DNA from: Gemmatimonas aurantiaca T-27
Lineage (GTDB): Bacteria; Gemmatimonadota; Gemmatimonadetes; Gemmatimonadales; Gemmatimonadaceae
Direction: 5' to 3'
Assembly (NCBI RefSeq): GCF_000010305.1
Contig: NC_012489.1
Location: forward strand, 2,363,646-2,427,645
DNA length: 64,000 bases
A program made the position numbers and the translations under genes. Within the stretch, counting starts at the first letter, position 1; the number at the start of each line of letters is the position of its first letter. The notes beneath the pieces are model-generated. The model ran no database searches and had not been told where the DNA came from. It saw only the letters and a list, made by a program, of their open reading frames with translations. This document shows positions 1,412-60,902 of this stretch, one piece after another.

Positions 1412-1567
1412 GACCGATTCACTCGATGATGTTGGGGGTGTTCACACGCTCGCACATCGGGGAGCGGGAAGCAGCTCTGTGTGCCGTGGAGGCCGTGGCG
1501 TAGACGAGGAGGGAGACGTGTCGGCCGGTCAACGGCGGAAGTTACGCACGCTGTTTTGTACACCTAA

Positions 1568-1577
1568 TTGTATACAA
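1568..1577. promoter_or_regulatory. Palindrome TTGTATACAA, candidate operator
   Basis: A perfect 10-base palindrome lies in the divergent region between the hydrolase (start 1411) and the GNAT gene (start 1686). A related half site (TTGTACA) lies just upstream at 1556-1562. Sites of the form TGTATACA are typical of GntR-family repressors, but no regulator gene is adjacent, so the assignment is only a guess from sequence form and position. Confidence 0.3.
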
Positions 1578-1685
1578 GCTCACGAGAAGGTATGTTGCCC
1601 AAACTCGTTCGGCAAGAGTCTTTCGGCCCTCGTTCTTCGCTGCCTCGAGGTCCGCATTGCCGACGCCCGCTTCCCGTCTCTGCGT

Positions 1686-2567
1686 ATGCGGCCTACCAAC
1701 TGGCTACCGACGGCGTCTCAAACGCCTCTCCCTCCTCTCGTCGGCACTGACGGCGTGATCATTCGCCGAGTGGTATCGCTCGAGGAATACCAGGAATGTG
1801 TGCAGGTCCAGGAAGAGATCTGGGGCCCCGGTTTCCGCGAGCTCGTCCCTGTCGCCATCCTGCTCGTCGCACAGAAACTCGGCGGCATCTGCGCGGCCGC
1901 CTTTGCCCCCGACGGACGCATGTTGGGGTTTGTCTTCGGCCTGACCGGCATCAAGGACGGCGAGCTTGCGCATTGGTCAGACCTCCTCGCGGTACGCTCC
2001 GATGCGCGTGGGGCACACATCGGAGAGCGGCTCAAGCACTATCAACGTGCGCTGTGCATCGCCTCTGGTCTGCCCACGATGTATTGGACATTCGATCCTC
2101 TCGTCGCCCGCAACGCCCATCTCAATCTGATGCGACTCGGAGCCACCGCCTCCGAGTATGTCGTCAACATGTATGGCAACAATACCGGAAGCCCGCTGCA
2201 TGGAGCGGTCGACACCGATCGCTGGGTCGCGCGATGGGAGCTGGCGGCAACCACCACACCGCCGTCTCCCGCCGCTCCACATCGTGACGGCGTGTACGTC
2301 GTTCGTCCTTCTCCGACGGATGGCACGCCGATCGAGGAAGCACACCCGAACGCCACGGTGGTGCGAGTCGCCGTACCAGTGGATCTCGAATCACTGGGGG
2401 TGCTGCAACGCACTGCCTGGCGGAACGCCACCCGCCGGGCGTTCATGGACCATCTTGGCGCCGGTTTCGACGTGATTGGTTTTCATCGTGCGCACGAGGG
2501 CGAGCCGCCGTTCTATGAACTCATCGCTCCCGCAGGCTTTTCCCATTCCTCTTCCACATCGTCATGA
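1686..2567 (+). CDS. GNAT-family N-acyltransferase, possible D-amino-acid N-succinyltransferase
   Basis: The reading frame is open upstream, but that part lies over the divergent hydrolase and has no protein character. ATG 1686 is the first sensible start (293 aa), and GTG 1755 is a good alternative because the conserved fold begins there (VIIRRVVSLEEY). Visible features are the GNAT strand and acyl-CoA loop region (LAVRSDARGAHIGERLKHYQ), an IWGP segment and a WTFDPLVARNAHLNL segment, as in the COG3375 group. Its last four bases overlap the start of the racemase gene (ATGA at 2564), so the two are translationally coupled. In Geobacillus a GNAT next to an NSAR gene succinylates D-amino acids before racemisation; the same role is inferred here from context only. 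Confidence 0.72.
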   Translation: MRPTNWLPTASQTPLPPLVGTDGVIIRRVVSLEEYQECVQVQEEIWGPGFRELVPVAILLVAQKLGGICAAAFAPDGRMLGFVFGLTGIKDGELAHWSDLLAVRSDARGAHIGERLKHYQRALCIASGLPTMYWTFDPLVARNAHLNLMRLGATASEYVVNMYGNNTGSPLHGAVDTDRWVARWELAATTTPPSPAAPHRDGVYVVRPSPTDGTPIEEAHPNATVVRVAVPVDLESLGVLQRTAWRNATRRAFMDHLGAGFDVIGFHRAHEGEPPFYELIAPAGFSHSSSTSS

Positions 2568-3682
2568 TCCGACTCGAACAGATCACGCTTCGTGAAATTC
2601 GGCTGCCGCTGCGAGAACCGTTTCGCATCTCCTCCGGTGAAGTCACCGAACGGCGCATCACGTTGCTCGAATTGCGTGATGTGGATGGGGTGACGGTGTG
2701 GAGCGAAGGGGTGGCTGGTGAACTCCCCAATTACAGCCCTGAGGCCATCGACACGGCATGGATCGCGATCACCAACTGGGTGGCGCCGCGGGTATTGGGG
2801 CGCGAGTTCGCACATCCGCGTGACGTCTTCCCCGCCCTTGAAGCCGACTTCCGCGGCAACATGATGGCCAAGGCCGCCGTGGAGATGGGATTGTGGGTAC
2901 TCGAAGCGCAGCGGCGCGGTGTGCCGCTGGCCTCGCTACTCGGCGGCACACGCGATGCCATTGCCACCGGCATTTCTCTTGGTATTCAATCGTCGCCGGA
3001 GCGACTCGTCGCCAAGGCACAGGCAGCCATCGCCGAAGGCTATCGCAAGGTGAAGATCAAGATCGCCCCCGGTCAGGACATCGCCTATGTCCGCGCGGCA
3101 CGGGAAGCCTTGCCGGATGCGCCGCTCATGGCTGATGCCAACAATGCCTACACGCTCGACGATCTCGATCTGCTCGCGGAACTCGATGCCTTCGATCTGA
3201 TGATGATCGAACAGCCATTGGCCTGGGACGATCTCGTACAACACGCCACACTGCAGCAGCGTCTTCGCACGCCGGTGTGCCTGGATGAATCCATCACGTC
3301 TCTCGATCGTGCACGGGACATGGTCACGTTGGGCGCCGGCCGCATTGTGAACATCAAACCCGGACGTGTTGGTGGGTTTGCGAGCTCCTTGGCCATTCAT
3401 GACTACTGCTTCGCGCAGGGCATTCCGGTATGGTGTGGTGGCATGCTCGAAAGTGGCGTCGGCCGCGCCTGCAACGTGGCCCTGGCTTCGCTACCCGGCT
3501 TCACCAAACCAGGTGATCTCTCACCGAGTGCGCGCTATTGGTCACAGGATGTCGTCACACCGGAATGGACCATGACCAATGATGGCATGGTGCCTGTTCC
3601 TCTCCATGCACCAGGACTCGGTGTGTCCGTGGACGTCGATCGTATCGACAATCTGACGGTTCGGCGCGTGGTGCTGCACTGA
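2564..3682 (+). CDS. menC: N-succinylamino-acid racemase / o-succinylbenzoate synthase (enolase superfamily)
   Basis: 372 aa, the normal length for the NSAR/OSBS branch of the muconate-lactonizing subgroup. All active-site residues are visible: the KxK pair K164/K166 (VKIKI), metal ligands D191 (ADANNAY), E216 (IEQPL) and D241 (LDESI), and the second catalytic lysine K265 (NIKPGRVGG). The spacing matches the Amycolatopsis N-acylamino-acid racemase almost exactly. The enzyme either dehydrates SHCHC to o-succinylbenzoate in menaquinone synthesis or racemises N-succinyl-amino acids; many members do both. No other men gene is nearby, while the coupled GNAT gene argues for the racemase role. A stem-loop follows the stop. 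Confidence 0.87.
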   Translation: MIRLEQITLREIRLPLREPFRISSGEVTERRITLLELRDVDGVTVWSEGVAGELPNYSPEAIDTAWIAITNWVAPRVLGREFAHPRDVFPALEADFRGNMMAKAAVEMGLWVLEAQRRGVPLASLLGGTRDAIATGISLGIQSSPERLVAKAQAAIAEGYRKVKIKIAPGQDIAYVRAAREALPDAPLMADANNAYTLDDLDLLAELDAFDLMMIEQPLAWDDLVQHATLQQRLRTPVCLDESITSLDRARDMVTLGAGRIVNIKPGRVGGFASSLAIHDYCFAQGIPVWCGGMLESGVGRACNVALASLPGFTKPGDLSPSARYWSQDVVTPEWTMTNDGMVPVPLHAPGLGVSVDVDRIDNLTVRRVVLH

Positions 3683-3689
3683 CGAAATA

Positions 3690-3737
3690 CAGAGCGGCGG
3701 ACGGAACGTGGTCTATGTGTCGTCCCCGCTCTGCTTT
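3690..3737. terminator. Stem-loop terminator between convergent genes
   Basis: CAGAGCGG (3690-3697) pairs with CCGCTCTG (3726-3733). After a one-base bulge GGACG pairs with CGTCC, leaving a 17-base loop. A pyrimidine run CTTTCCT follows on the plus strand. It sits between the racemase stop (3682) and the end of the permease (3767) and can serve both. Confidence 0.55.
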
Positions 3738-3766
3738 CCTTGCATCGGTCCAGAGCCCCAGGCGAA

Positions 3767-5086
3767 TCAACTGTATCCTGAACGCCTACGCCACAGGTAG
3801 TACACTGGCGCGCCAAGCAGTACGGCGCCGAGACCAACCGCCGCGCGCGACGGCTGCGTGATCATGGTGTTCAGTACGAGTGCCACTGCTGCGAGCACAA
3901 AGAGAATCGGCGTAACCGGATATCCTGGCACACGAAATGGGCGCGGCATATTCGGGGCGCGGCGGCGCAAGGCGAACACCGCCACGCCGCCGAGTGCATA
4001 GAACCCCCAGCCCGTGAACACCACGTAGGTGAGCAATTGTTGGAACGTGCCGGTGAGGGCCAGCACGATCGACCATACGGCGATCGCACCGATGGCGAAT
4101 GCGGGAGTTTCGAATCGCGGATGCACATCCGCCAGGCGGCGAAAGAACACGCCGTCACGCGCCATCGCAAAGAACATGCGCGGTGTCGTGAGAAAGAGCC
4201 CGTTCGCGGCACTGAGAATGGAAATCAGAATCAATGCGCCAACGGCATTGCCGGCTGCCGTGCCGAGTACCCAGGCCACGGACTGCGCTGCCACGCGTTC
4301 ACTGCCTGCCACGCCTTCCGGCCCAAGCGCCGCCACATACCCGATATTGGCGACGAGATAGATCGCGACCAACGCCGCCGTCGCCATGCTGATGGCGCGC
4401 GGAAACTCCCGTTGCGGATCGCGCGCTTCACCGGCTGAGAAGGTGACATACTGCCACCCTTCATATGCCCACAGCACGGCGATCATCGCTCCACCGATGC
4501 CGGTCATCGTGAGCTCAGGGGATGCGATGTCTATCCGCTCTGTACTCGACGCTTTCCCCAAGGTGATCAGCACGCCGGCGAGTGCCAGCAGTCCGACGAC
4601 CTTCGCCACCGTCGTGAAATTCTGCAGATTGGCACTGTTTCGTGTGCCACGCACATTGATGGCGGCCAACAGGAGAATGAGCACCACCGACGTGACGCGA
4701 GCGCCGAGTGGCGACAAGGTCACCAACTGGCCGAGATAGCTGGAGAACGCCACGGCGAGTGTGGCGATGGATCCCGAGGCGATGATGAAGAACATGGTCC
4801 AGCCATACAGGAACGCGGGCAGCGGACCGAAGGCGTCGCGCAGGTAGCTGTACAGTCCTCCGGCGTCCGGCTTGGCGGCGCCGAGCTCCGCGTACGTCAG
4901 CGCGCCGAGCAACGAGAGCACACCACCGACAGTCCATACGGCCAGCGCAACTCCTGGCCGCATGCCGGTTTCTCGCAATACGACACTCGGCACGAGATAG
5001 ATACCGGACCCGATGACCGTACCGATACCGAGCAGCAGAAGGTCGGTGAATCCCAGCGTACGTCGGAGACTGCGGGGCTCATTCAT
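3767..5086 (-). CDS. APC-family amino-acid permease
   Basis: 439 aa integral membrane protein with about 12 hydrophobic segments. The first helix carries the APC signature GIGTVIGSGIYLVPS, the broken helix that binds the substrate amino and carboxyl groups. A conserved AYEGWQYVTFSAGEARDP segment lies in the middle and an RVPGYPVTPILF segment near the end, both typical of the LAT/APA exchangers. The short cytoplasmic tail ends in RRRSGYS. Substrate is probably a neutral or cationic amino acid and cannot be narrowed further. ATG 5086 starts right at the family N-terminus. The gene is alone, with a 160-base leader and then the structured repeat at 5249-5341 upstream. Confidence 0.88.
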   Translation of the reverse strand: MNEPRSLRRTLGFTDLLLLGIGTVIGSGIYLVPSVVLRETGMRPGVALAVWTVGGVLSLLGALTYAELGAAKPDAGGLYSYLRDAFGPLPAFLYGWTMFFIIASGSIATLAVAFSSYLGQLVTLSPLGARVTSVVLILLLAAINVRGTRNSANLQNFTTVAKVVGLLALAGVLITLGKASSTERIDIASPELTMTGIGGAMIAVLWAYEGWQYVTFSAGEARDPQREFPRAISMATAALVAIYLVANIGYVAALGPEGVAGSERVAAQSVAWVLGTAAGNAVGALILISILSAANGLFLTTPRMFFAMARDGVFFRRLADVHPRFETPAFAIGAIAVWSIVLALTGTFQQLLTYVVFTGWGFYALGGVAVFALRRRAPNMPRPFRVPGYPVTPILFVLAAVALVLNTMITQPSRAAVGLGAVLLGAPVYYLWRRRSGYS

Positions 5087-5248
5087 ACACTGGCGTCCTG
5101 GTCGGGGGAACGCGCGGGAGCAGTAGTGGGATGCGAAAATAGCTCGACGATGTTAGGACGTCACGGGATCCTAGGGAAACACGGTACTACGGATCCAAAC
5201 GCGCGTAGGCTATAGAACTGCGTCCTCTCCATCTGCTGCCTGCTTCCT

Positions 5249-5341
5249 CTTGATATCGTGACGCGGTGGCGGCGATGGTGTCCGCGAGCCGCACCATTCC
5301 GCTTACGGAGAGTGCGGGTTCCACGGCGTCACGATATCAAG
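5249..5341. repeat. Structured inverted-repeat element of 93 bases
   Basis: The 16-base arm CTTGATATCGTGACGC (5249-5264) is exactly complementary to 5326-5341. After one mismatch four more pairs form (5266-5269 with 5321-5324). Inside lies a second hairpin: CCGCAC (5289-5294) with GTGCGG (5312-5317), capped by TCCG-ctta-CGGA (5298-5309). The 19 bases at 5270-5288 stay unpaired or could form ATGGTG/CACCAT as an alternative. No coding frame fits. It lies between the act terminator and the permease leader. It could be a short mobile or REP-like palindrome, or a structured RNA upstream of the permease. Confidence 0.75.
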
Positions 5342-5383
5342 ATGAATCAGGGGGAGGGTTGGAAAGGCCGGAGTGAGCAGGAC

Positions 5384-5422
5384 AAAAAAACGCGGGGCGA
5401 ACGATTGCTCGTTCGCCCCGCG
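5384..5422 (-). terminator. Rho-independent terminator of the act operon
   Basis: CGCGGGGCGAACGA (5391-5404) pairs perfectly over 14 bp with TCGTTCGCCCCGCG (5409-5422) around the loop TTGC. On the minus strand a run of seven U follows (plus-strand A at 5384-5390). It lies 25 bases beyond the actF stop. Confidence 0.95.
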
Positions 5423-5446
5423 CCTTCCTTCCTTTCCTACCCGAGC

Positions 5447-6778
5447 TTATTCGTGCGCGGGGAGGGGTTCCATCGTGCGCGGATCAACCGGCACCTGCAC
5501 TTCATCCTTGAACGGCGTGGTCATCATGAACACGCGCATCACGGGGAAGGCATCCATGAACGTGAAGTAGCTGAACGCCCACAGGCCGATGAAGCCGATC
5601 GTCGTGCCGATTTCCTGCAGGCCAAACGGAAGGCTCGTCGCTTCGCCGTAGATGCTCGGATAGATCTCGATGTAGCGATGGAGATACACACCGATCAGGC
5701 TGCACACCGCAAACAGCACGAACGTGGGCAGGTACATCTTGGCGGCCTTGGAGATCAGACCGAAGAACGGCAGCACAAACCCGAAGATCGGGATGAGCGT
5801 GGTCATCGTCTTCCACACACCCGACAGACGCAGGCGGTAGAAGTGCGTTTCTTCCGGCAAGTTGCCGTACCAGATCACCAGGTACTGGCTGAAGCTGATG
5901 TAGCCGATGAACGCCGTGAACGCGAAGCCGAGCTTGCCGAGATCCCAAAGCTGGTCCATGGTGACCACGTCCGGGGCGTTCAGATGCTTGCGCCACCACA
6001 TGGTCAACAGCGAGGTGAGCATGATCATGTTCACCCAGCCGCTCATGAACACGATCCACGCGTACATCGTCTGCTGGAAGTGCAGCGAGATGGTCATGGA
6101 GTAATCCCATGCCATGAAGCACCAGCCGATCGGGAACGCGATGCAGACCGCGACCGCGAGCTTGCCCTGCAGCGAATGCTGCGTGTGCAGTTCGCGACGC
6201 TCGTCACCCGACCATGCCGCGCGCATCTTCGCGCGGAGGCCCGCCGCCCACTTGGCGCCGTACTCGGGCAGCACCGCGACGTCCATCTTCACCGAATGCC
6301 AGACGAACAGCAACTGGAGGACGGTGATGAGGCCGAAGAAGAAGATGCCACGGAGCAGGAAGAACGTCGGATCGAGGTAGGTCGCCTTCTCGATCGTCGG
6401 CACCGCTTCGCGGCCGGCCCACGTGAAGATGTGGTCACCGCTGAAGAACAGGATGCCAAGCAGGATGATGAACGCCACCGGCACGAAGGCGACGAAGCCT
6501 TCGGTGAAGCGGATGATCGGACGCGACCAACGCGCCGTCACGATACGCTGCACTGCCGCGAACGTCGTACCGGCGGTGGAGATCACCGCGAAGTACATCC
6601 AGTTGAAGTGCAACGCCTGCCACGCCCGATCGGGGTTGGTGAACAGACCGAAGGCAAACACCGCCACGCCCACCAGTGCCGCGATAAGACTGAAGGTCTT
6701 CAGGCTCGCCGGCACCGGCTTGGCGGCCAGGCGCTTCGCAAACTCCTGGCGTGCCGGATAGTGATAGTGCTGGCTCAC
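5447..6778 (-). CDS. actF: Alternative complex III subunit ActF (NrfD-like quinol-binding membrane subunit)
   Basis: 443 aa with about ten transmembrane segments and the NrfD/PsrC fold. It is the second of two such subunits in alternative complex III, which oxidises menaquinol in the cytoplasmic membrane and passes electrons to the cytochrome subunits. Recognisable parts are the GDHIFTWAG loop, the LRGIFFFGLITVLQLLF helix and the PIGWCFMAWDYSMTISLHF segment. The start ATG 6778 overlaps the actE stop by four bases (ATGA). It is the last gene of the operon and is followed by a strong terminator. Confidence 0.93.
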   Translation of the reverse strand: MSQHYHYPARQEFAKRLAAKPVPASLKTFSLIAALVGVAVFAFGLFTNPDRAWQALHFNWMYFAVISTAGTTFAAVQRIVTARWSRPIIRFTEGFVAFVPVAFIILLGILFFSGDHIFTWAGREAVPTIEKATYLDPTFFLLRGIFFFGLITVLQLLFVWHSVKMDVAVLPEYGAKWAAGLRAKMRAAWSGDERRELHTQHSLQGKLAVAVCIAFPIGWCFMAWDYSMTISLHFQQTMYAWIVFMSGWVNMIMLTSLLTMWWRKHLNAPDVVTMDQLWDLGKLGFAFTAFIGYISFSQYLVIWYGNLPEETHFYRLRLSGVWKTMTTLIPIFGFVLPFFGLISKAAKMYLPTFVLFAVCSLIGVYLHRYIEIYPSIYGEATSLPFGLQEIGTTIGFIGLWAFSYFTFMDAFPVMRVFMMTTPFKDEVQVPVDPRTMEPLPAHE

Positions 6779-7575
6779 TCGTGCTTCTCCTTGGGCGTGC
6801 CATGCTCAGCCGGCGGACCGACGTGCAGCTTGCGCATGGTGTCGAACTCATTGTTGCCCTTGAAGGTGGCCGAATTGATGTTCGGCGACCCAGGGGTGGG
6901 GGTCTGCGTCGGGCGAACGAACGGCGACGGCCGCGTGGGCGCCGTAGCCGAGGCCCGCGGCACCGTGGTGCCGTTCTGGCCCGGATAGCCGATCAGAGTG
7001 GTATCCGCCTTGATGGCGCCCTGACCCTGCAGTGCACGGAGGTAGTTCACCACGTCCCAGCGGTCCTGATCTTCGATGCGGTTGTAGCTCGGCATCAAAC
7101 CACGACCGTTCCGGATCATGCCGTACAGGTATCCGTCGGTGCGACCCAGTGCCTGCGGCGTGAGCAGGCTCGGGCTGAAGCCGTATGCCGCGTTGACCTT
7201 CTTGAGGCCACCGTTGCCATCGCCCGCCATGCCGTGGCAGACCGCGCAGTTGATCTGGTAATGCTTCCGACCGTTTTCGATCGACGCTTCGGTCACCAGA
7301 TGCGGATTCGGCACGACCGAGAACGAGTCGACCGCCTGCATGGTGGGGGCGTAGCTGATCTGGAAGGCGGCGACCGTCATGCCCTGCACCGGCACCGAGC
7401 CCACCGGCTGACCGCGCGGCGGGGTGGTGGTGTCGGACTCGAGCTGCGAGACCGGCTCCCACGGCTTGATGCTGGGCTGAGTCTTGAAATCCGTGAACCA
7501 GTTGCAGGCGCCAAAGGCCACCGGCAGCATCACCACGGACGACAGACGCAGCACGCGTGTGACGGCAGAAGTCAT
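6775..7575 (-). CDS. actE: Alternative complex III subunit ActE (monohaem cytochrome c lipoprotein)
   Basis: 266 aa from ATG 7575. The frame is open further upstream but there it runs over actD. The lipobox VAFGAC puts the lipidated Cys at residue 24, so the protein is anchored at the outer face of the membrane. One haem-c site CAVCH lies at residues 110-114 and the likely axial Met in the GLMPSY motif about 55 residues later, as in class I cytochromes c. The tail is rich in Pro and Thr. It carries electrons from the ActA/ActB side to the terminal acceptor. It starts 10 bases after actD ends and overlaps actF by four bases. Confidence 0.93.
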   Translation of the reverse strand: MTSAVTRVLRLSSVVMLPVAFGACNWFTDFKTQPSIKPWEPVSQLESDTTTPPRGQPVGSVPVQGMTVAAFQISYAPTMQAVDSFSVVPNPHLVTEASIENGRKHYQINCAVCHGMAGDGNGGLKKVNAAYGFSPSLLTPQALGRTDGYLYGMIRNGRGLMPSYNRIEDQDRWDVVNYLRALQGQGAIKADTTLIGYPGQNGTTVPRASATAPTRPSPFVRPTQTPTPGSPNINSATFKGNNEFDTMRKLHVGPPAEHGTPKEKHE

Positions 7576-7585
7576 GGAGAGGGAA

Positions 7586-8085
7586 TCAGGCTTCACGCCG
7601 CACCTCCGCTGCACCGTGTTCACGCAGCAGGGCTTCTGCCTGGTCGGCCTTGGCAGCGTCGCAAGCGATGAAGATGCCGAAGTAACCACCCGAGAAGCGG
7701 GCGTCATATCCGGTGGTGGTGGTGAGGCGCGGAATACGCGAGTTGATGAACATACCGGCCACCGTGGACAGTGCACCGACCAGCACCATCACTTCGAAGC
7801 CGATGATCGTGTAGGGGATCCACGAGGCGAACGCCTTGCCGCCCACAACGAGCGGCCAGTAGTTCGACGACCAGATCGCGATCCAGTAGCCGAAGCTCAC
7901 CCCGAGCAGGCCGCCGACCAGCGTGAAACGCCGGACGACGGAGACGGGGGCGTCGATCGCATGATCGAGCTCATGCCGAATGGTCGGCGAATACACCGTG
8001 ACATCACCGAGGCGCTTCTTCTTCAGATCCTCGATGGCCGCCACCGTGGTGTCGAGCTCATGAAACGCGCCAGTTACGCCGCGCA

Positions 8086-8086
<1 letters not shown>
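7586..8086 (-). CDS. actD: Alternative complex III subunit ActD (DUF3341)
   Basis: 166 aa. A soluble N-terminal part (ITGAFHELD-like start, then an ERD-type alpha/beta segment with VTVYSPTIRHEL) is followed by two transmembrane helices around residues 53-75 and 90-112 and a soluble tail. This is the DUF3341 plan of ActD, a membrane subunit without cofactors. Its ATG shares one base with the actC stop (TAATG), which indicates coupled translation. Confidence 0.92.
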
Positions 8087-9513
<1,427 letters not shown>

Positions 9514-51991: not shown

Positions 51992-54900
51992 CTAAAAAAC
52001 CCAGTTGCGGAACAGGTCGAAGCCGAGCTGCATTTGCGGCCTGTCTGCGATATTGAACTGGGTGCAGGGAGCCGAACCGGGATCCACACCCACCTGCGCC
52101 AACCAGCCGCGTGCAATGCGGTATTCGGCGGCAATGCCGGCCCAGAATTGTGAGGCGCGCGCGGCATTCTGCGCCGATCCCCGACACACACCGGTATTCA
52201 ATCGCAGATAGGTGCGATCACCAAGTTGCTTACCGGCCGAAATGCTCAGGTTGAGATTGAGCAAGGTCTGAGCACTGAGCAGATCCTTCGTATCGGTCTC
52301 ACCACTGCCCGAAGTACTGACTTGCACCGTGTTGAAGTTTCCGGGCAAGATGCGTTGCAACTGGCCTTCAAAGGCCCCACCCACCGATTGCAGCAATACG
52401 TCCGTGACGACCTTCTGGCTCTGCCCATCGAGTGCAAAGGTGGGCGCACCAAAAATCAGCAGCGAAATGATCTCCGACTCCGGCGCTGAGGAGTACAGCG
52501 GATCGCTACTGGAAAGGGTCAGCACAGGTTGGTCGTAGCCACCGCTGATGCGCAGATGAATCGGGACTTCCTCTCCTCCTGTCACGCGCAACGTGTTGGA
52601 GGCATTGATATTCAGCGTGGGCGCCAGTTCCGCATTCGGATAGAACCGAACGCTTCCCGAGTCGATGGAGAAGCCGCGCACCACCGGGCCAACCTTGAGA
52701 CGGTACTGCCCGCGATTGGCAGTGATCTCGCCATCGAGCACGAGTCGGTCATCGCTCATGGCCACCGTCAGATTGCCGCCCAGTTTCACGCGGGCTTCGG
52801 GTGTCTGCACCCACACTTCCTGGCCCAGTTCCACGCGCGCGTTTTCCACGGCAATGAGAGTGCCCAACGCCGACAGTGATTGCGCGGCCGACTCCGCCAC
52901 CGGCACCTCGTCGACACCGAGCAACTCACGTGCCGCCTGCGACGAGAGATCGAGTGCCACGCGCTCGCCCAGGGGATCCACGACAATATTGGCCCGAGGT
53001 ACCGCCAGGCTGCCGCTCACGGTGGGCCGCTTGAGCGCACCATTGATGCGCACATTGCCGCTGACATCGAGATCGGTGCCGTCGCGCTGACGGGACGCTT
53101 CGAAGTTGTTCGCGGTCAGGCGCACATCCACCTGCATCGGATCGTTGGCCGGCATGAGCAACACGCCCCGCGCGGCGAGAGTATCGGCCGCCGAACGCCC
53201 GCTACGCAGGCGCAGCGACTCCAGTACCACGGAATCGGCATTGGCGCGCACGACGATGCGCCCTTCTGAAGGGGCGATACCCAGATCATCGAGGCTCGCG
53301 CCGGCGCCGTCGAGGATCATCGTGCCGGTGGCGCTGGGCCGTTCGAACGTGCCGCCGAGTGAAAGCCGACCCGAGAGCACACCACGTTGATTGCTCACCC
53401 CATCGATGCGTACCGGCAGAGCCTGAATACGCAACGAATCGGCAATGAGGGCCCCTTCCACCGCATCACTGAGCAGACGCTTCTCCACCGACGCAATACG
53501 CAAGTCGATCGGAATGCGCCCCGTCACGCGCAACGCACCGCCCAGCGAATCGGCCAATGACGCTTCGGCGACCAGGCGCTGCTCGGCATAACTGCCCTTC
53601 GAATTCACCGCGGGAAGCTGGTAGCCGTTCACGCCGAGTGAGTCGCCGGTCAACTGCCAGGAGATCAGCGGTGCCTGGCGATTGCCACGCAACTCCGCCG
53701 TACCCGTGAGCGTGCCATTGAACGGCTGCACACCGGCCAACAAGGTGGCCACCTCACCCACTGGGAATCGCTCGAGACGCAGGTTCCCGCGCACGTCACC
53801 GGTGGAAGGCACATCGGCATCCACCGCCAGCACACCACCAACCGTGGAGCGCAGTTCCGCAGCCTGCAAACGCAGGCCCGCAGAATCCGAAGCCACCACG
53901 ATCGGCTGCTGCGAACGCCAGGTGATGTCGTCGTAGGACAACCGCAGCGTATCCAACGTGATGGTGCTGGTGCCCGCCTTGATGGCATAGGCTCCATGCG
54001 CCACCAACTGCGCATCGGTTTCCGTACCCACATCGAACACGAGCTGACCGCTGTCCGGACTCGCTTCCGTCACACGCGCCGTGGCACTCTGAATGCGCAC
54101 GGCACCAATGCCCGTGACTTCATCGAATGTGGCCGTGCCTTCGAAGGTGGGTCGGCGGAAAACATCTTCGGCGTGCAACGATCCAAAGATGCGCCCCACC
54201 TTGATGGCACCCACCTGCAACGCACGCCCACCGAGTGCCACGTTGGCATCGGCGGCCGTGAAGCTGCCCACGACGTAGCCGGACAACGACAGATCGCCCT
54301 GCAGCGTGTCCGCGGCGATATCGCGCAACGTGACGGCCGAAGCGGAATCGAGCGGCATCATCATGCCTGCTAGTCGTGTCAGTTCGGGGCGCGCCGAATC
54401 GAGCGAATCGCTGCGCGCCGATACCTGGAGCGTGTCCGACTGCAGGGAATCACGCGAGAGTCCGCCGCGCGCTTCGAACGTGACACCACCCAAGTGCGCC
54501 AGCGCGGAATCCACCACCAGGCGCCGCGGATCCAGGAGCGCACTGGCCACGAGATCGAACGAGGGTTGACCATCACTCTGCGTCTGCTGCAACTGCACCA
54601 CGGCCCGTCCGGTGAGCACACGCACATCGCCGGAATCCGCCGCCGCCGGCGCAGCCAGGGTATCGAGCGGACCCTGTCCCGCCACGTGCAGCTCCCCGCG
54701 CAGTGACGTGGACGGAATATCCGTCCGTCCGAACCACTGACGCGCATCCACCCCATGCAGCGATCCATCCGCCGTGGCGCGCCAGGTGCGCTGGCCAATC
54801 GAAGCCGTGCCGGACAGGGCCACGGTGCGTGCCCAGGCCGCAGCCGTGTCGCGGGGACTGACGTCCGCCACGGTGTTGGCGATGGCCTTGGTCGAATCCG

Positions 54901-56716
54901 CCGGAGACGGCGCAACGGGCGCCGCGGTCGCGAATTCACTCACCGTCGGCACGGCCTGCTCTTCGCCCAACGCCGCCAGCTCGGCGCGCCATGTCAGCGC
55001 GGACAGCGTGCCTTCCACCGCCACGCGCCCGGCCAGTCGCGACTGCAACGGGATCGTGGTGTCGATCCGGGCAATCGCACGCATCGACAGCGGCTCAAAC
55101 GCGAGATTCGTGTTCACCTCGATATCATCGCGATCATATCGCGCGGTGAGCCGTCCTCGCACCGACGACACATTGCTGGCCGCGTCGGTCCACACCAACG
55201 CGAGCTGCGGCACGTCGGCCCGTGCCAGATCGGCCGACCGTAACTGCAAGGCACCCGTGAGTACGCCGTCCAATGCCAGCGTATCGGGAAGGAACGGCTT
55301 GATCGACCGCAGATCCACCCGCAGACTGCTCACGTTCATGTCACGCGCACTGGGCTCGGCGCCAATGCCTACGGTGCCTCGCAGCGTCACGCTGGACACC
55401 GCGGTACCCTGCGTGCCGGCCACCACGGCTTCATCGGTGAAGCGCGCATCGAGCAGATCGATCTTGAGCGCCGAAAGCGGCCCGCCTTCGGCTGCCACAA
55501 AACGGCCAGTGAGGCTGCCCTTCACACTCTCCGGCACAGCATCGTAGCTGATACGCCGCAACAGGTCGGCGCGCAGCGGCGCAAAGGCCAGATCCACCCG
55601 ATGCAGCAGCAGGTCGGCCGGCCGCACGGTGATCGCAATGCCACCACGCACGCGAGACCCACCCGTCTCGACATCGAGATTGCTGAGTGCGTACTCCGCG
55701 TCGTCCGGATTTTCGAGCGTGCGCATGCGAACCGTGGCCTGCCCACGACCCTCGGTGGGCAACACATCCCACACCCAGGTCAAATCGGACAACCCCGCGT
55801 CGGCCTTCACCAGCACGTCGTAGCGCACGGCCCCCGGCTGATTCCAGGCCACGGTACCTACCGCACTGCCCACCGATGCGGGCAGCTCCACACGCGGCAA
55901 GTCGAGCATCAGCGAATCCGACGTCCAGGTCACACGTCCCGCTGCCTGCTTGATCGACACCGGCGGCGCGGAGATCGCCCCACTCAGCGAATCGATCTCC
56001 AGCGACGATGGCCGCTTGAGCAGATCGACGACCACGATGTCATGCGCCTTCACCCGGTTGAGCGCAATCGTGCGCCGCTCGAACCAGCGCCCACCACTGG
56101 CCGCCGTGAGGTCGGACGTGCTGTCGCGGAGCGCGATGATGCTGTCTCGCGCCGCGCCCGTGAAGATCGGGTGGGGTTCCCATGGCGCAAAGGTGGTGAT
56201 GTGCGCCCCCGTGATCGCCACCGAGGAAATGCGTACGTCGTCACCGAATCCGGGCGTGATCGACGGGACTTTTGTGGTGGTGTCGCCGGCAATGATATGC
56301 GCGATGTTCCACGGGGTGCCGGGCGCATCCTGCCGCAGATCCATGACCAGACTGTCCACCACGACGTCGTTCACGCGGATGGCTTTCCGCAGCAAGGCGC
56401 TCCACGAGATCGAAGCCTGCACCCGCTCGGCCGTGACCACCGGTACGCCCGCCGTATCGACCAATGCCACCTGTTCGGCTACGATGCGCCCGCGGCTCAC
56501 TTCACGCAGTGCACCGATGCGTAGCGCGCCACGTCCGTCGAAGGTGCCATTGGCGCTTTCGATCACCTTGGCCAGCAGCCACGACCGACCGCCTTCGGTG
56601 CCGGTGAGCCACCAATAGGTGGTGACCACCCCCGCTCCCAGTGACAGCAACAAGGCCGCCGCCCACCAGAAGCGACGCTGTTTTGCGGAGCTGAACTTCG
56701 ATCGCAGGGACGTCAT
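51992..56716 (-). CDS. tamB: TamB-like translocation/assembly module protein (inner-membrane to outer-membrane bridge)
   Basis: 1574 aa. A single N-terminal anchor helix (WWAAALLLSLGAGVVTTYWW) is followed by a very long repetitive beta-sheet region and the C-terminal TamB (DUF490) domain. That domain includes GNLTVAMSDDRLVLDGEI, VRFYPNAELAPTLNI and the closing ISAGKQLGDRTYLRLNTGV and GFDLFRNWVF. The last residue is Phe after Val, as in outer-membrane partners. AsmA/TamB proteins form a hydrophobic groove that carries phospholipids or helps outer-membrane protein assembly. The ATG at 56716 shares one base with the tamA-like stop (TGATG). It converges on the PEP-CTERM gene with 24 bases between. 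Confidence 0.9.
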   Translation of the reverse strand: MTSLRSKFSSAKQRRFWWAAALLLSLGAGVVTTYWWLTGTEGGRSWLLAKVIESANGTFDGRGALRIGALREVSRGRIVAEQVALVDTAGVPVVTAERVQASISWSALLRKAIRVNDVVVDSLVMDLRQDAPGTPWNIAHIIAGDTTTKVPSITPGFGDDVRISSVAITGAHITTFAPWEPHPIFTGAARDSIIALRDSTSDLTAASGGRWFERRTIALNRVKAHDIVVVDLLKRPSSLEIDSLSGAISAPPVSIKQAAGRVTWTSDSLMLDLPRVELPASVGSAVGTVAWNQPGAVRYDVLVKADAGLSDLTWVWDVLPTEGRGQATVRMRTLENPDDAEYALSNLDVETGGSRVRGGIAITVRPADLLLHRVDLAFAPLRADLLRRISYDAVPESVKGSLTGRFVAAEGGPLSALKIDLLDARFTDEAVVAGTQGTAVSSVTLRGTVGIGAEPSARDMNVSSLRVDLRSIKPFLPDTLALDGVLTGALQLRSADLARADVPQLALVWTDAASNVSSVRGRLTARYDRDDIEVNTNLAFEPLSMRAIARIDTTIPLQSRLAGRVAVEGTLSALTWRAELAALGEEQAVPTVSEFATAAPVAPSPADSTKAIANTVADVSPRDTAAAWARTVALSGTASIGQRTWRATADGSLHGVDARQWFGRTDIPSTSLRGELHVAGQGPLDTLAAPAAADSGDVRVLTGRAVVQLQQTQSDGQPSFDLVASALLDPRRLVVDSALAHLGGVTFEARGGLSRDSLQSDTLQVSARSDSLDSARPELTRLAGMMMPLDSASAVTLRDIAADTLQGDLSLSGYVVGSFTAADANVALGGRALQVGAIKVGRIFGSLHAEDVFRRPTFEGTATFDEVTGIGAVRIQSATARVTEASPDSGQLVFDVGTETDAQLVAHGAYAIKAGTSTITLDTLRLSYDDITWRSQQPIVVASDSAGLRLQAAELRSTVGGVLAVDADVPSTGDVRGNLRLERFPVGEVATLLAGVQPFNGTLTGTAELRGNRQAPLISWQLTGDSLGVNGYQLPAVNSKGSYAEQRLVAEASLADSLGGALRVTGRIPIDLRIASVEKRLLSDAVEGALIADSLRIQALPVRIDGVSNQRGVLSGRLSLGGTFERPSATGTMILDGAGASLDDLGIAPSEGRIVVRANADSVVLESLRLRSGRSAADTLAARGVLLMPANDPMQVDVRLTANNFEASRQRDGTDLDVSGNVRINGALKRPTVSGSLAVPRANIVVDPLGERVALDLSSQAARELLGVDEVPVAESAAQSLSALGTLIAVENARVELGQEVWVQTPEARVKLGGNLTVAMSDDRLVLDGEITANRGQYRLKVGPVVRGFSIDSGSVRFYPNAELAPTLNINASNTLRVTGGEEVPIHLRISGGYDQPVLTLSSSDPLYSSAPESEIISLLIFGAPTFALDGQSQKVVTDVLLQSVGGAFEGQLQRILPGNFNTVQVSTSGSGETDTKDLLSAQTLLNLNLSISAGKQLGDRTYLRLNTGVCRGSAQNAARASQFWAGIAAEYRIARGWLAQVGVDPGSAPCTQFNIADRPQMQLGFDLFRNWVF

Positions 56717-58965
56717 CAGAAGGCGTGCCCGAGGCCGAAGTGAAAGACCAGCTTGGACAGGAAACCGCGACCGCTGGGCGGACGGAATGTTGCCGGACAG
56801 GAGAGCACATCACTGTAGTCGGCGTCCGGGTCCGTACGGGGACTCGCGCAATAAAACATGTCCCCCTCCGTGGTACTGGGATTGATGTACAGCGCGCGTC
56901 CTGCGGTCGCGGAATACGGTCGATACCCCACGTCCATGCGGAAGGGGCCAAGTGGGGTGACGACGCGTATCCCCACCCCAGGGGTGTAGCGCACATCCTT
57001 CCAACTGAAGCGATGTGAACTCGTTTCCCACAGCGAGCCACCATCGACAAACGTCACCAGTTGCAACTCTTCGGCGAGAAAACGAAAGCCTCGGCGATAC
57101 TCGATGTTGCCAACGACCATGGCGGTACCACCGCGTGGCACCGCACGGTCGGCCACCGCGCCAGCTTTCGCCTCCACACCAAAGTCGCCGTTGGGCAGCG
57201 GCATGGTGTCCACGTTCTGTACTACGTACACCACCGGTCCGAGCAGATTCTGCTGGAAGCCACGCACCGAGTTCTGACCGCCCGCGAACAATCGCTCCTG
57301 CTGCGGCAGCAGCGGCGTACCATCCACCAGATCTGCCCCCGGCGCAAACACACCCGACGCCTGGACCCGGAGGGCCAGTACCCCCTTGAAGGCGCGCAGG
57401 AACGTGGCGCCTTCGATGGTGCTGCGGTAGAAGCGCAGGGTGGACACCAGCTCCGAGTAGGTGATACCCGCTCGCTGCTCACCCCGCACGCGCCAGCCCC
57501 TCGCGGGATTCAGTACATCGTTGGTGCGGTCGTACGACACCGACGTGCTGGCAATGCCGATACCACGCCCGAAAGCCGAGAGAATGATCTCCTCCGGCTG
57601 ACACTGTCCAAAGCGTGTGCAGGATGTGATGGGGTCGGTAGTGGTCTTGCCATTCTCGTACTGCACACCGGCCGAACCAACCAGACGCGGCGAGAACTGG
57701 CGGCTCACTTCCGTCATGGCGCCGATCGTGGTTTCCCGCAGGTAGGCAAAGGGCTCGCTGCGCCGCTCGCTGTACACCGATGCCGTTGGCGCAACGGGCA
57801 ATCCGAACAGTCGCGAGTTGGAGATGCTGGTCCCGAGGTAGTAGTTCAGCTTTTCACTGAACGGGTCCTTTCGGGTGGCCGGCGCACACAGCGACGGCGC
57901 AAATCCCGCCGGATCACCGACGCCGATCTTCGACGCCCGCGCCGTCAATTCCACACGGCGTCCCACGCCGAGGAAACCACGGTCCACCAGACGGCCCTGT
58001 ACGCGCATGCAATCGAGTGTGGCCCAACCCACGCCTGCACGCGCACTCCGTGTCTGGGCTTCGGCGACCGACACCTTGAGTCCGATCAGCGTATCGGCGC
58101 CCGGCCCCTGCATCGGCAAGGTGTCCAGCAGCACCAGACGAAACGCTTCTGAGCGATAGAGCGCCCGCTGGGCATCCACGATTTCCGACGTGCTGTACCG
58201 ATCACCCGGATCGATGGCGACCAGGCGCGCCACCTCGCTCGAATCGATGCGCTGCCGGTCGCCTTCCTTGCGTGGCTGCACATTGACCTTCACTTCACCG
58301 ATGCGCAGCCGTGATCCCGTTTCGAAGACGAACCCGAGCGAGACCTTGGCCGTCGCGGAATCGATCGTGACTTTCGTCACTGGCGTTTGGGCCCGCGCAA
58401 ACCCAACCTCGCGCAGTCGACCGAGCACCGCGATCACGGTGGCATCCACCGCGGTCCGGTCGAACCGATTTCCCTGCAACGCGAGCAAAGATTGCCCATA
58501 TGGCCGACGACCCGGAGGCGCTTCCGGCAGCCCTGACACATCCACCGTATCGATCTTCGCTTCCGGGCCAGGTATCACGATGAAGCGCACCCGCACGCCG
58601 TCCTTGCGCTGCTGCAGATCGGGCGTGACGGACGCACGAAACCACCCCGCCTGGCGATGCAGCACCGCAATACGCAGCGCATCGCGGCGCATTTCCAGCG
58701 AATCCAGACAGGGCGCGGTTCCGATACCGAGCAAGCGCTTGAGGATGCCCGGTTCGTGCGTCAGGATGCTGGCGGCCAGCGTCATGTCGTCGAACGCCGG
58801 GCTGCCACTGAACGAGACCGCCCGCACCCGTTCATCGTCGTCGCAACGGGTCGTGCCCTGTGCCATCGCGACACCCGGCAACACCGACAGTAGCAGCAGC
58901 AGTGGCAGCGCCACCGGTACCCAGGCCCGCAGAAAGTCACGCAGGTGCGTCCGAAACCGCATCAT
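56716..58965 (-). CDS. tamA: TamA/BamA-family outer-membrane protein (Omp85)
   Basis: 749 aa from ATG 58965; an ATG directly follows at 58962. A signal peptide (AWVPVALPLLLLLSV, then GVAMAQG) precedes about three POTRA repeats between residues 45 and 300. A 16-strand Omp85 barrel follows, with ARLFAGGQNSVRGF-like motif (RLFAGGQNSVRGFQ), VNTVDGGSLW-like strand (VTFVDGGSLW) and PGVGIRVVTPLGPFRMDVG, the lid-strand pattern. The terminal Phe of FHFGLGHAF is the barrel-assembly signal. With the coupled TamB downstream, it is assigned as TamA rather than BamA. Confidence 0.9.
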   Translation of the reverse strand: MMRFRTHLRDFLRAWVPVALPLLLLLSVLPGVAMAQGTTRCDDDERVRAVSFSGSPAFDDMTLAASILTHEPGILKRLLGIGTAPCLDSLEMRRDALRIAVLHRQAGWFRASVTPDLQQRKDGVRVRFIVIPGPEAKIDTVDVSGLPEAPPGRRPYGQSLLALQGNRFDRTAVDATVIAVLGRLREVGFARAQTPVTKVTIDSATAKVSLGFVFETGSRLRIGEVKVNVQPRKEGDRQRIDSSEVARLVAIDPGDRYSTSEIVDAQRALYRSEAFRLVLLDTLPMQGPGADTLIGLKVSVAEAQTRSARAGVGWATLDCMRVQGRLVDRGFLGVGRRVELTARASKIGVGDPAGFAPSLCAPATRKDPFSEKLNYYLGTSISNSRLFGLPVAPTASVYSERRSEPFAYLRETTIGAMTEVSRQFSPRLVGSAGVQYENGKTTTDPITSCTRFGQCQPEEIILSAFGRGIGIASTSVSYDRTNDVLNPARGWRVRGEQRAGITYSELVSTLRFYRSTIEGATFLRAFKGVLALRVQASGVFAPGADLVDGTPLLPQQERLFAGGQNSVRGFQQNLLGPVVYVVQNVDTMPLPNGDFGVEAKAGAVADRAVPRGGTAMVVGNIEYRRGFRFLAEELQLVTFVDGGSLWETSSHRFSWKDVRYTPGVGIRVVTPLGPFRMDVGYRPYSATAGRALYINPSTTEGDMFYCASPRTDPDADYSDVLSCPATFRPPSGRGFLSKLVFHFGLGHAF

Positions 58966-59069
58966 CAAGTCGAAGGGGCGTGGCGGAGTGTCATGTGGTC
59001 ACGAATCTAAGTGCCGGGGCCGCGAGACGGCGTAGATTGCAGAGTCACCTCAACGTTCAGGAGCCCTAC

Positions 59070-59789
59070 ATGTATTTGCGACTCCGCCTGCTCATCCTGG
59101 TGCTTGGGGTGATCACCACACCCACGGTGATGGCGGCGCAGGACCGAGATACCCTCAGGGCCCCCGTCGGGGATCCCTCGATGGTCCGGGATTCGGCGCT
59201 GGTCGTGGATGCTGGCGTGACGGTGGACACAATCGTTGGGCTCGCCGACCCGCACCCCACCCCGTCGTCCGGAGTGGTCCTGAGTCCCGTGGCGTTGCGC
59301 CGGTCCTTCGCACGGTTGGACACCACGCCCCAGGATACGGTGCGCCGCCGCCCGCGCGCCGTGCAGTACTCCGACGGTTATGGCACCCGCCTGATGATTC
59401 ACCGCACGCTGAGCTGGGCCATGTTGCCGCTCTTCGCGGCGTCGTATTTCTCCGGCGACCAGATCCTCAAGGACGGCAGTGATGCGCCGTCGTGGGCTCG
59501 CAATGTGCACCCTGCTGCGGCGACGTCCACGGCGGTCCTGTTCGGCGCCAACACCGTGACCGGTGTCTGGAATCTGTGGGAAGGCCGTCACGACCCCATC
59601 CGGCGCAAGCGGCGATTCCTGCATGCGGCGCTGTTCATGGCGGCCAGTGGCGGGTTCACGTATGCCGGTACGAAGCTGGCCGATGACGCGGAGCAGTCTG
59701 ATACCAAACGTCGACAGCACCGCAACGTGAACCTGGCCTCGATGGGTGTCTCTACGGCGAGTTGGCTGATCATGCTGGTAGGCAACTGA
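59070..59789 (+). CDS. Exported four-helix membrane protein with one histidine per helix
   Basis: 239 aa from ATG 59070, with CAGGAGCC as ribosome site. A signal peptide (MYLRLRLLILVLGVITTP, then TVMAAQD) and a polar region of about 80 residues precede four predicted transmembrane helices. Each helix opens with a histidine: His111 (MIHRTLSWAMLPLFAAS), His147 (NVHPAAATSTAVLFGA), His185 (RFLHAALFMAASGGF) and His218 (QHRNVNLASMGVSTASW). Four histidines on one side of a four-helix bundle is the plan of b-type dihaem cytochromes such as cytochrome b561; haem binding is inferred. A second small membrane gene follows by 16 bases and a Rieske gene after that. Confidence 0.7.
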   Translation: MYLRLRLLILVLGVITTPTVMAAQDRDTLRAPVGDPSMVRDSALVVDAGVTVDTIVGLADPHPTPSSGVVLSPVALRRSFARLDTTPQDTVRRRPRAVQYSDGYGTRLMIHRTLSWAMLPLFAASYFSGDQILKDGSDAPSWARNVHPAAATSTAVLFGANTVTGVWNLWEGRHDPIRRKRRFLHAALFMAASGGFTYAGTKLADDAEQSDTKRRQHRNVNLASMGVSTASWLIMLVGN

Positions 59790-59805
59790 CCGTCAGACCC
59801 CCACG

Positions 59806-60327
59806 ATGCTCGATGCACTCATCACGCTCACCCAACCGTGGGCGGACCTCTACATCTCCAGCACCCCACTTTCCACGTCGGTGTTGGTGATGCACATCCT
59901 CAGCCTGTTTGTGGGGGGCGGCATTGCGCTGGGCACCGATCGGCGCGTGCTGCGTGCGCAGCCCGGCACCGGCGAGGCCTATCTGGCGGCCGGCGAGGAT
60001 CTCAAGGCCACCCATGGGGTCGTACTGATCGCCCTCTGCCTGACCGTGGTGAGTGGCCTCGCACTGGCGACCGCGGATCTCGGTACGTTCGCGATTTCAC
60101 CCCTGTTCTGGTCCAAGATGGCACTCTTTGCCATGCTGCTGATCAACGGGGCATTGATGCGACGCACCGAAACACAGGTCATCACCGCGGCGCGTTCCAC
60201 CATGGAGCGGGCCATCGACGGCTCCGATCCGGCCCTGCCGTGGGGCGCGTTGCGTCGGTTCGCCTGGATCAGTCTCGGATGCTGGATGGGTCTCGTCGTG
60301 TTGGGTGTGATTCTCGGGAACACCTGA
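59806..60327 (+). CDS. Small four-helix membrane protein of unknown function
   Basis: 173 aa from ATG 59806. Four transmembrane segments: LVMHILSLFVGGGIALGTD, THGVVLIALCLTVVSGLALAT, FWSKMALFAMLLINGALMRR, and FAWISLGCWMGLVVLGVILG. His30 and His70 sit inside the first and at the start of the second helix and could pair on one haem. It resembles short DUF-type proteins found near respiratory or copper genes. It lies 16 bases after the tetra-His protein and 65 bases before the Rieske gene, all on one strand. Confidence 0.65.
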   Translation: MLDALITLTQPWADLYISSTPLSTSVLVMHILSLFVGGGIALGTDRRVLRAQPGTGEAYLAAGEDLKATHGVVLIALCLTVVSGLALATADLGTFAISPLFWSKMALFAMLLINGALMRRTETQVITAARSTMERAIDGSDPALPWGALRRFAWISLGCWMGLVVLGVILGNT

Positions 60328-60392
60328 TCGACAGGTTGAGGCATCGTCCGTCGACATTCTCGTTTCCGCCTTTTTGCACGCCGACACCACAC

Positions 60393-60902
60393 ATGTCCAC
60401 GCCATCTCCTGATGCGTCGCACGACGCCTGCGTGAGTTGCACCACGCGGCGTGATTTCCTCCGCGCGGGCGCTGGCTCACTGGCCTTGGGCGCGCTGGGG
60501 AGCACACTGCTTGCCGGCCCGTGGCGCACCCTCGACGCACTCGAGCCGCGTGTCGTGGGCGGTGCGGTGCGCTACCCCATTCCCGCGGCCGATGGGGTGT
60601 CCATCGACAAAAAGAACGAGATCATCCTGTGCCGAGTGGGCGTGGAGGTGTATGCCTTCGCGCTGTCGTGTCCGCACGAGAACACCGCGCTGCGCACGCT
60701 GCCCAGGAATGGCGGCTTTCAGTGCCCCAAGCACAAGTCCAAGTACCAGCCCAACGGCACCTTCATCAGCGGCCGCGCCACGCGCAACATGGACCGCCTG
60801 CCGATCACCCGTGAGGGAGACGCGCTCGTGGTCGATCCCGACCGCTATTTCGAAAGCGACAAGGATCCCGCCCGCTGGGCTGCTGCCCTCGTGAAGCTCT
60901 AG
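60393..60902 (+). CDS. Tat-exported Rieske 2Fe-2S protein
   Basis: 169 aa from ATG 60393; the frame is open upstream but there it lies over the preceding gene. The twin-arginine signal TTRRDFLRAGAG with a hydrophobic stretch sends the folded protein to the periplasm. The Rieske ligands are Cys93 and His95 (LSCPHENT) and Cys111 and His114 (QCPKHKSKY). The region around the second ligand pair has no disulfide cysteines, as in soluble low-potential Rieske proteins. Two cysteines (CVSC) precede the RR pair, which is unusual for a Tat n-region. It is not part of a bc1 operon, and the two upstream membrane proteins are its natural partners. Confidence 0.85.
   Translation: MSTPSPDASHDACVSCTTRRDFLRAGAGSLALGALGSTLLAGPWRTLDALEPRVVGGAVRYPIPAADGVSIDKKNEIILCRVGVEVYAFALSCPHENTALRTLPRNGGFQCPKHKSKYQPNGTFISGRATRNMDRLPITREGDALVVDPDRYFESDKDPARWAAALVKL

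Follow-up and report, generated by a model that had tools for sequence, protein, structure and literature searches.

The pairing of a Rieske iron-sulphur protein with a membrane haem b protein is best known from the bc1 and b6f complexes, whose cytochrome b carries its histidine pairs on two helices. Cytochrome b561 (CYB561, transmembrane ascorbate ferrireductase, PDB 4O6Y), a six-helix and ascorbate-linked protein, has one haem-ligating histidine in each of four successive helices; to our knowledge, it is not encoded together with Rieske proteins. The designed di-haem protein 4D2 (PDB 7AH0) goes back to a peptide whose parameters were taken from bc1 cytochrome b; each of its two haems is ligated across opposite helices (PMC10400981). 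Solved Rieske structures further include those of anammox Rieske/cytochrome b complexes and of arsenite oxidase (AioB). Here we describe a locus of Gemmatimonas aurantiaca T-27 that probably codes for a small and hitherto undescribed unit of electron transfer, made of other components than the usual cytochrome bc1. No papers on a Rieske module of this kind were found in the literature searched.

The window, i.e. the whole stretch of 64,000 nucleotides that was analysed, covers positions 2,363,646-2,427,645 of a single 4,636,964-base contig. Three co-directional genes, designated M1, M2 and R, are located near its end on the plus strand. M1 (59070..59789) encodes a protein of 239 aa with hydrophobic N-terminus and four predicted membrane helices. 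It is followed after 16 bases by M2 (59806..60327), coding for 173 aa with four predicted membrane helices, and after further 65 bases by R (60393..60902), whose 169-aa product is a predicted Tat-exported Rieske [2Fe-2S] protein matching Pfam family PF00355 (30.0 bits, cut-off 20.3). The CxxCH motif is absent from the translations of all three genes. No promoter-like sites were found at the locus, and terminator-like sites were found within M1 only. The initial annotation had described gene order, helices, Rieske ligands and histidines in agreement with these data, except for the fourth histidine of M1, which is residue 217; residue 218 is arginine. The gene upstream of M1 is a divergently transcribed outer-membrane assembly gene. 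As judged by sequence only, the region directly upstream of the module (51992-58968, minus strand) holds a pair of large genes, coding for TamB-like (1574 aa) and BamA/TamA-like (750 aa) proteins.

Sources of homologues were 249 Gemmatimonadota genomes, 80 loci taken from a species-level collection of genomes, and Acidobacteriota genomes; distinct sequences were counted. The 80 loci were gathered by pattern search for R, the M1 alignment being too variable, and were thus chosen for having R. Nine residues of M1 are kept in 110 of 110 distinct homologues: Arg107, His111 (codon at 59400), Pro120, Gly129, His147 (59508), Thr164, Gly165, His185 (59622) and His217 (59718). The same is true for His30 (codon at 59893), Asp45, His70 (60013), Lys104, Asn114 and Trp160 of M2, again in 110/110. 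In R, both arginines of the Tat motif and the four cluster ligands C93, H95, C111 and H114 (cluster-binding segment 60669..60734) are present in all 124 distinct homologues. Since identities to the window proteins fall to 34% for M1 and 33% for M2, invariance of the M1 and M2 residues is not a mere lack of divergence, and conservation of their histidines, as read from the alignments, is far from chance. All histidines on whose conservation the initial annotation had made its proposal depend are therefore among the invariant positions.

To which known proteins M1 may be related was estimated from fold and sequence. The AlphaFold2 model of M1 (70-sequence alignment, mean pLDDT 92.4) consists of four long helices (model residues 25-59, 62-92, 100-128 and 132-157) that carry histidines at model residues 32, 68, 106 and 138, each 6-7 residues into its own helix. 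From the up-down topology, His111 and His185 would lie near one end of the bundle, His147 and His217 near the other. It had been expected that the histidines face each other in a predicted model; their equal depth in the helices is seen in the model, while we only infer the mutual facing. The top Foldseek match of the model is 4D2, with weak E value (0.07) and probability of 0.97. The second aligner, VIA, superposed M1 on 4D2 with Z 12.5 and rmsd of 2.1 Å over 103 residues, on cytochrome b6 with Z 12.2 and on cytochrome b561 with Z 10.5. However, unrelated designed bundles without haem function reach Z 15 against the same model, so the fold alone is no proof of haem.

The sequence profile appears more telling. 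When the M1 profile was compared with all PDB chains, the only matches were variants of 4D2 (E 0.0003-0.003 as sums over repeats) and cytochrome b561 (E 0.8). In the weakly scoring alignment with b561, His111/His147 fall onto residues 118/157 of the construct and His185/His217 onto residues 51/84, which we take for the four haem-ligating residues (numbered 117/156 and 50/83 in the native protein, 4O6Y structure); a Gly and a Thr-Gly are paired as well. In spite of the weak scores, the columns that coincide are the functional ones. In this alignment, M1 helices 1-2 correspond to b561 helices 4-5, and M1 helices 3-4 to b561 helices 2-3. The spacing of the histidines is similar in both proteins; on the contrary, M1 has four helices after a signal-like segment instead of six and is without known ascorbate link. 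Resemblance to 4D2 concerns the single-chain four-helix bundle, a histidine near the start of each helix and, for M1 as predicted, pairing across opposite helices, whereas 4D2 is water-soluble with closely spaced haems and M1 is a natural membrane protein. This resemblance is a matter of design, not of ancestry. The closest Pfam families of M1 are DUF4079 and then DUF420, both below cut-off (window M1 reaches 23.4 bits against the gathering score of 31.4 for DUF4079, PF13301). Six-helix b561 family PF03188 is matched by only one of 39 M1 homologues (E 0.089), and neither M1 nor M2 matches the cytochrome b/b6 family PF00033 at E up to 1. M1 is likely a b561-like two-haem protein, its haem binding being predicted. 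The earlier description as four-helix bis-haem membrane protein is well supported for M1.

Orientation of M1 in the membrane can be read in two ways. The N-terminus is hydrophobic in 63 of 71 M1 homologues, which would place the beginning of helix 1, together with the linker, outside. In conflict with the signal-like N-terminus, the segment ahead of helix 1 and loop 2 both carry net positive charge, which favours the inside. In one M1 among 114, that of genome G029, the N-terminal linker contains CxxCH; this would agree with an external position. The predicted di-haem arrangement is independent of the orientation.

M2 is modelled by AlphaFold2 (pLDDT 96.4) as a short N-terminal helix followed by four long helices. 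Fold searches returned generic helical bundles only and were uninformative. Profile searches gave weak matches to DUF2214, DUF6644, UPF0093 (HemJ) and CopD; the HemJ match was found in 11 of 37 M2 homologues (best E 0.0012), and the window M2 stays below the curated cut-offs of its families (for DUF2214, PF09980, 23.5 bits vs a gathering score of 34.1). Helix boundaries place His30 and His70 about 9 Å apart in depth, and a haem shared by the two is possible. No papers on function of DUF4079, DUF2214 or DUF6644 were found in the literature searched.

These family matches bear on another explanation, namely that M1 and M2 act in assembly or maturation (of haem, copper or the Rieske cluster), serve R or a respiratory enzyme in this way, and bind haem or metal by their histidines transiently. 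DUF420 is the CtaM family of oxidase maturation (PMC4958251), and the weak matches of M1 to this family and of M2 to UPF0093/HemJ and CopD point in the same direction. However, M1 scores better with DUF4079 and displays the ligand pattern of b561 and 4D2, and genes for an oxidase or for cofactors do not constantly accompany the module. Moreover, most Rieske proteins, as far as we know, need no such dedicated maturation genes. A role in maturation thus seems unlikely to us, and a role in electron transfer is the preferred one.

R possesses a Tat-type RR-DFL sequence and the ligand motifs C93-x-H95 and C111-xx-H114. Directly before the twin arginines, in the cytoplasm-facing part of the Tat signal, there is a near-invariant C13-x-x-C16 motif (60429..60440); Cys13 is present in 100 of 100 covering rows and Cys16 in 110 of 115. 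Because many R members show AxA-like cleavage sites ahead of the Rieske domain, R is probably a free periplasmic protein and not an anchored one. The disulfide pair of the bc1/b6f type is absent: positions 98 and 113 are occupied by Thr and Lys, and no Cys is found among the common residues of 124 homologues. By sequence, the closest solved relatives of R are two Kuenenia Rieske proteins (PDB 9RK3 and 9RK4) and AioB; in contrast to the anammox complexes and AioB, the R locus lacks their partner genes and R lacks their disulfide cysteines.

A second Rieske protein, R', is encoded in 55 of the 80 R loci; in the window genome, no R' adjoins the module. R' contains a twin-arginine motif, and the Cys that follows its hydrophobic stretch is invariant (26 of 26 sequences), so R' is probably a Tat-exported lipoprotein (simple lipobox pattern fits 19/26). 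Like R, most R' are without the disulfide cysteines. Ser116 and Tyr118 of R are kept in its homologues, whereas R' usually has Ala and Phe at these positions. Since Ser and Tyr at these Rieske positions raise redox potential (PMC12954380), the potential of R is predicted to be above that of R'. Elsewhere in the window genome (L219 8448-9935, C1 ~1,766,447-1,767,934), a lipoprotein-like protein of 495 aa is encoded, in which a long linker joins two Rieske domains of the R' type. Similarly long matches occur in congeners, one of them without M1.

Further, we examined how constantly the three genes occur together. Among the 80 R loci, M1 is present in 73 and M2 in 74. Both are located on the strand of R in 70 loci, belonging to two phyla, which answers the concern that the Rieske gene might never be found with the two membrane genes elsewhere. 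The exact order M1-M2-R is kept in 64 loci; several loci stop at contig edges. Across 249 genomes, co-occurrence of M1 and M2 has an odds ratio of 197 (Fisher p 2e-41, uncorrected for kinship). Gene order, predicted folds and co-occurrence are results of calculation, and the M1-M2-R unit with its invariant residues is established in this way; the claim of a conserved unit is strongly supported. Eight of the 80 R loci bear an Acidobacteriota label, and a sample of 297 Acidobacteriota genomes yielded 7 matches, most of them again adjoining M2 and R. In phylogenetic trees, R of Acidobacteriota falls into a single group (moderate support), while two changes are needed for M1. Exchange and shared descent both appear compatible with the R and M1 trees. 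The module from a record labelled Candidatus Kuenenia stuttgartiensis (L150, CALQGY020000066.1) groups with Gemmatimonas, and the label is probably wrong.

Incomplete sets exist as well. M1 is found with R' only in L126, L234, L239, L241 and L245, M2 with R only in L095, L154, L165 and L189, and some genomes contain R alone. The neighbours of lone R genes are uninformative, and no viral version of the module was found. The partial sets M1-R' and M2-R suggest two working pairs. They could also be taken as a sign that the genes are neighbours by chance or by hitch-hiking, without joint function. This explanation is very improbable, as the same order is kept in two phyla at identities down to ~35%. 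Besides R', no recurring extra neighbour was detected: because any other flanking family is shared by at most 3 of 11 R lineages, the module looks self-contained, which likewise speaks against hitch-hiking.

The module resembles the bc1 and b6f complexes in combining a Rieske protein with a membrane di-haem b protein, the haems of M1 being predicted. It differs from them by lack of any PF00033 match, of a c1/f subunit and of disulfide cysteines in R. On the features tested, it is thus placed outside the bc1/b6f family, although it would work like a Rieske/haem-b system. The initial annotation stated that there is no bc1-type cytochrome b or c1 gene; this is correct for the locus, but the same genome encodes cytochrome b elsewhere (PF00033, E 1.2e-38). 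That cytochrome b is fused to a c-type tail with two CxxCH motifs (L218 6887-9393, C1 ~825,886-828,392), and the adjoining Rieske gene is of the canonical disulfide type (CPHLGC/CPCHKS).

It has been reported that few bc1 or alternative complex III genes are recognised in Gemmatimonadota (the latter in under 10%), and unknown modules were suggested (PMC9426454). The module might accordingly be imagined to take the place of bc1, as an alternative complex III performing the main quinol:cytochrome c step. This reading is highly doubtful, since the genome has the bc complex and presence of M1 is independent of PF00033 in the 249 genomes. NrfD-type proteins occur in 248 of these genomes and a full alternative complex III cluster in one relative, which also counts against it. 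According to the latter data, alternative complex III may be more widespread among Gemmatimonadota than the published figure of under 10% (PMC9426454), though not every NrfD need belong to it. As a replacement for a missing bc1, the module was rejected, M1 not being complementary to PF00033. With a bc complex elsewhere in the genome, NrfD near-universal and M1 independent of PF00033, the module is an addition rather than a substitute.

One locus connects the module with genes of nitrous oxide reduction. In G029 (L101, C11:170000-186000, positions 859-8613), a complete clade II nos cluster (nosZ-nosB-nosD-nosF-nosY and a cupredoxin gene) directly precedes M1-M2-R on the same strand. This organization would fit a pathway that provides clade II nitrous oxide reductase with electrons, running from quinol via M1/M2 and R to the cupredoxin and NosZ. 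It is in line with the CxxCH motif peculiar to this M1, with the phylum-wide association of M1 and nosZ (odds ratio 3.5, p 2e-5), and with the b- and c-type cytochrome and iron-sulphur genes that often lie alongside clade II nos clusters (PMC9697520). However, the linkage is restricted to this single locus: it is absent in congeners, and in the other 40 genomes with both genes no nosZ was seen near M1 when coordinates were compared by eye. For Gemmatimonadaceae alone, an odds ratio of 1.0 was obtained, and nosZ is absent from 30 of 71 M1 genomes. Because of these two results, N2O reduction is at most one of several uses. A role as dedicated donor of N2O reductase was rejected on account of the single linkage, the missing association within the family and the unlinked congeners, and we consider supply of this enzyme an improbable explanation of the module as a whole.

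We thus regard it as fairly probable, from models and sequences combined, that electrons are transferred between membrane and periplasm by way of M1, M2 and the Rieske proteins. M1 would be a small membrane cytochrome, a four-helix bundle with two b haems and a core like that of cytochrome b561. Haem 1 would be held between His111 and His185 near one membrane face, haem 2 between His147 and His217 near the other. M2 would be a four-helix subunit of DUF2214/HemJ/CopD type, whose invariant histidine pair probably binds a further haem or quinone. Electrons might run via the haems of M1 and M2 between the quinone pool or the inner membrane face and the periplasm. There, R, and in most relatives also R', which is probably membrane-tethered, would relay them to or from a periplasmic partner. 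Haem binding, electron flow and quinone as donor are what we infer from these data. More tentatively, the system may represent a third pairing of Rieske and membrane haem b proteins: quinol-linked, independent of bc1/b6f cytochrome b, with a b561-like four-helix di-haem core and DUF2214-type subunit, with one soluble and one lipid-anchored Rieske protein, and with periplasmic acceptors in Gemmatimonadota and Acidobacteriota.

If this is true, phyla of soil and freshwater have arrived at a separate evolutionary solution, in which a Rieske protein works with an unrelated-looking four-helix, four-histidine membrane protein. M1 would then correspond, as a natural protein, to designed di-haem bundles like 4D2. 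Should the single nos linkage be meaningful, the module would also be a candidate for electron supply of clade II N2O reductase. To the respiratory chains of Gemmatimonadota, which are poorly charted and may include unknown modules resembling complex III, as suggested earlier (PMC9426454), it would add a new candidate component.
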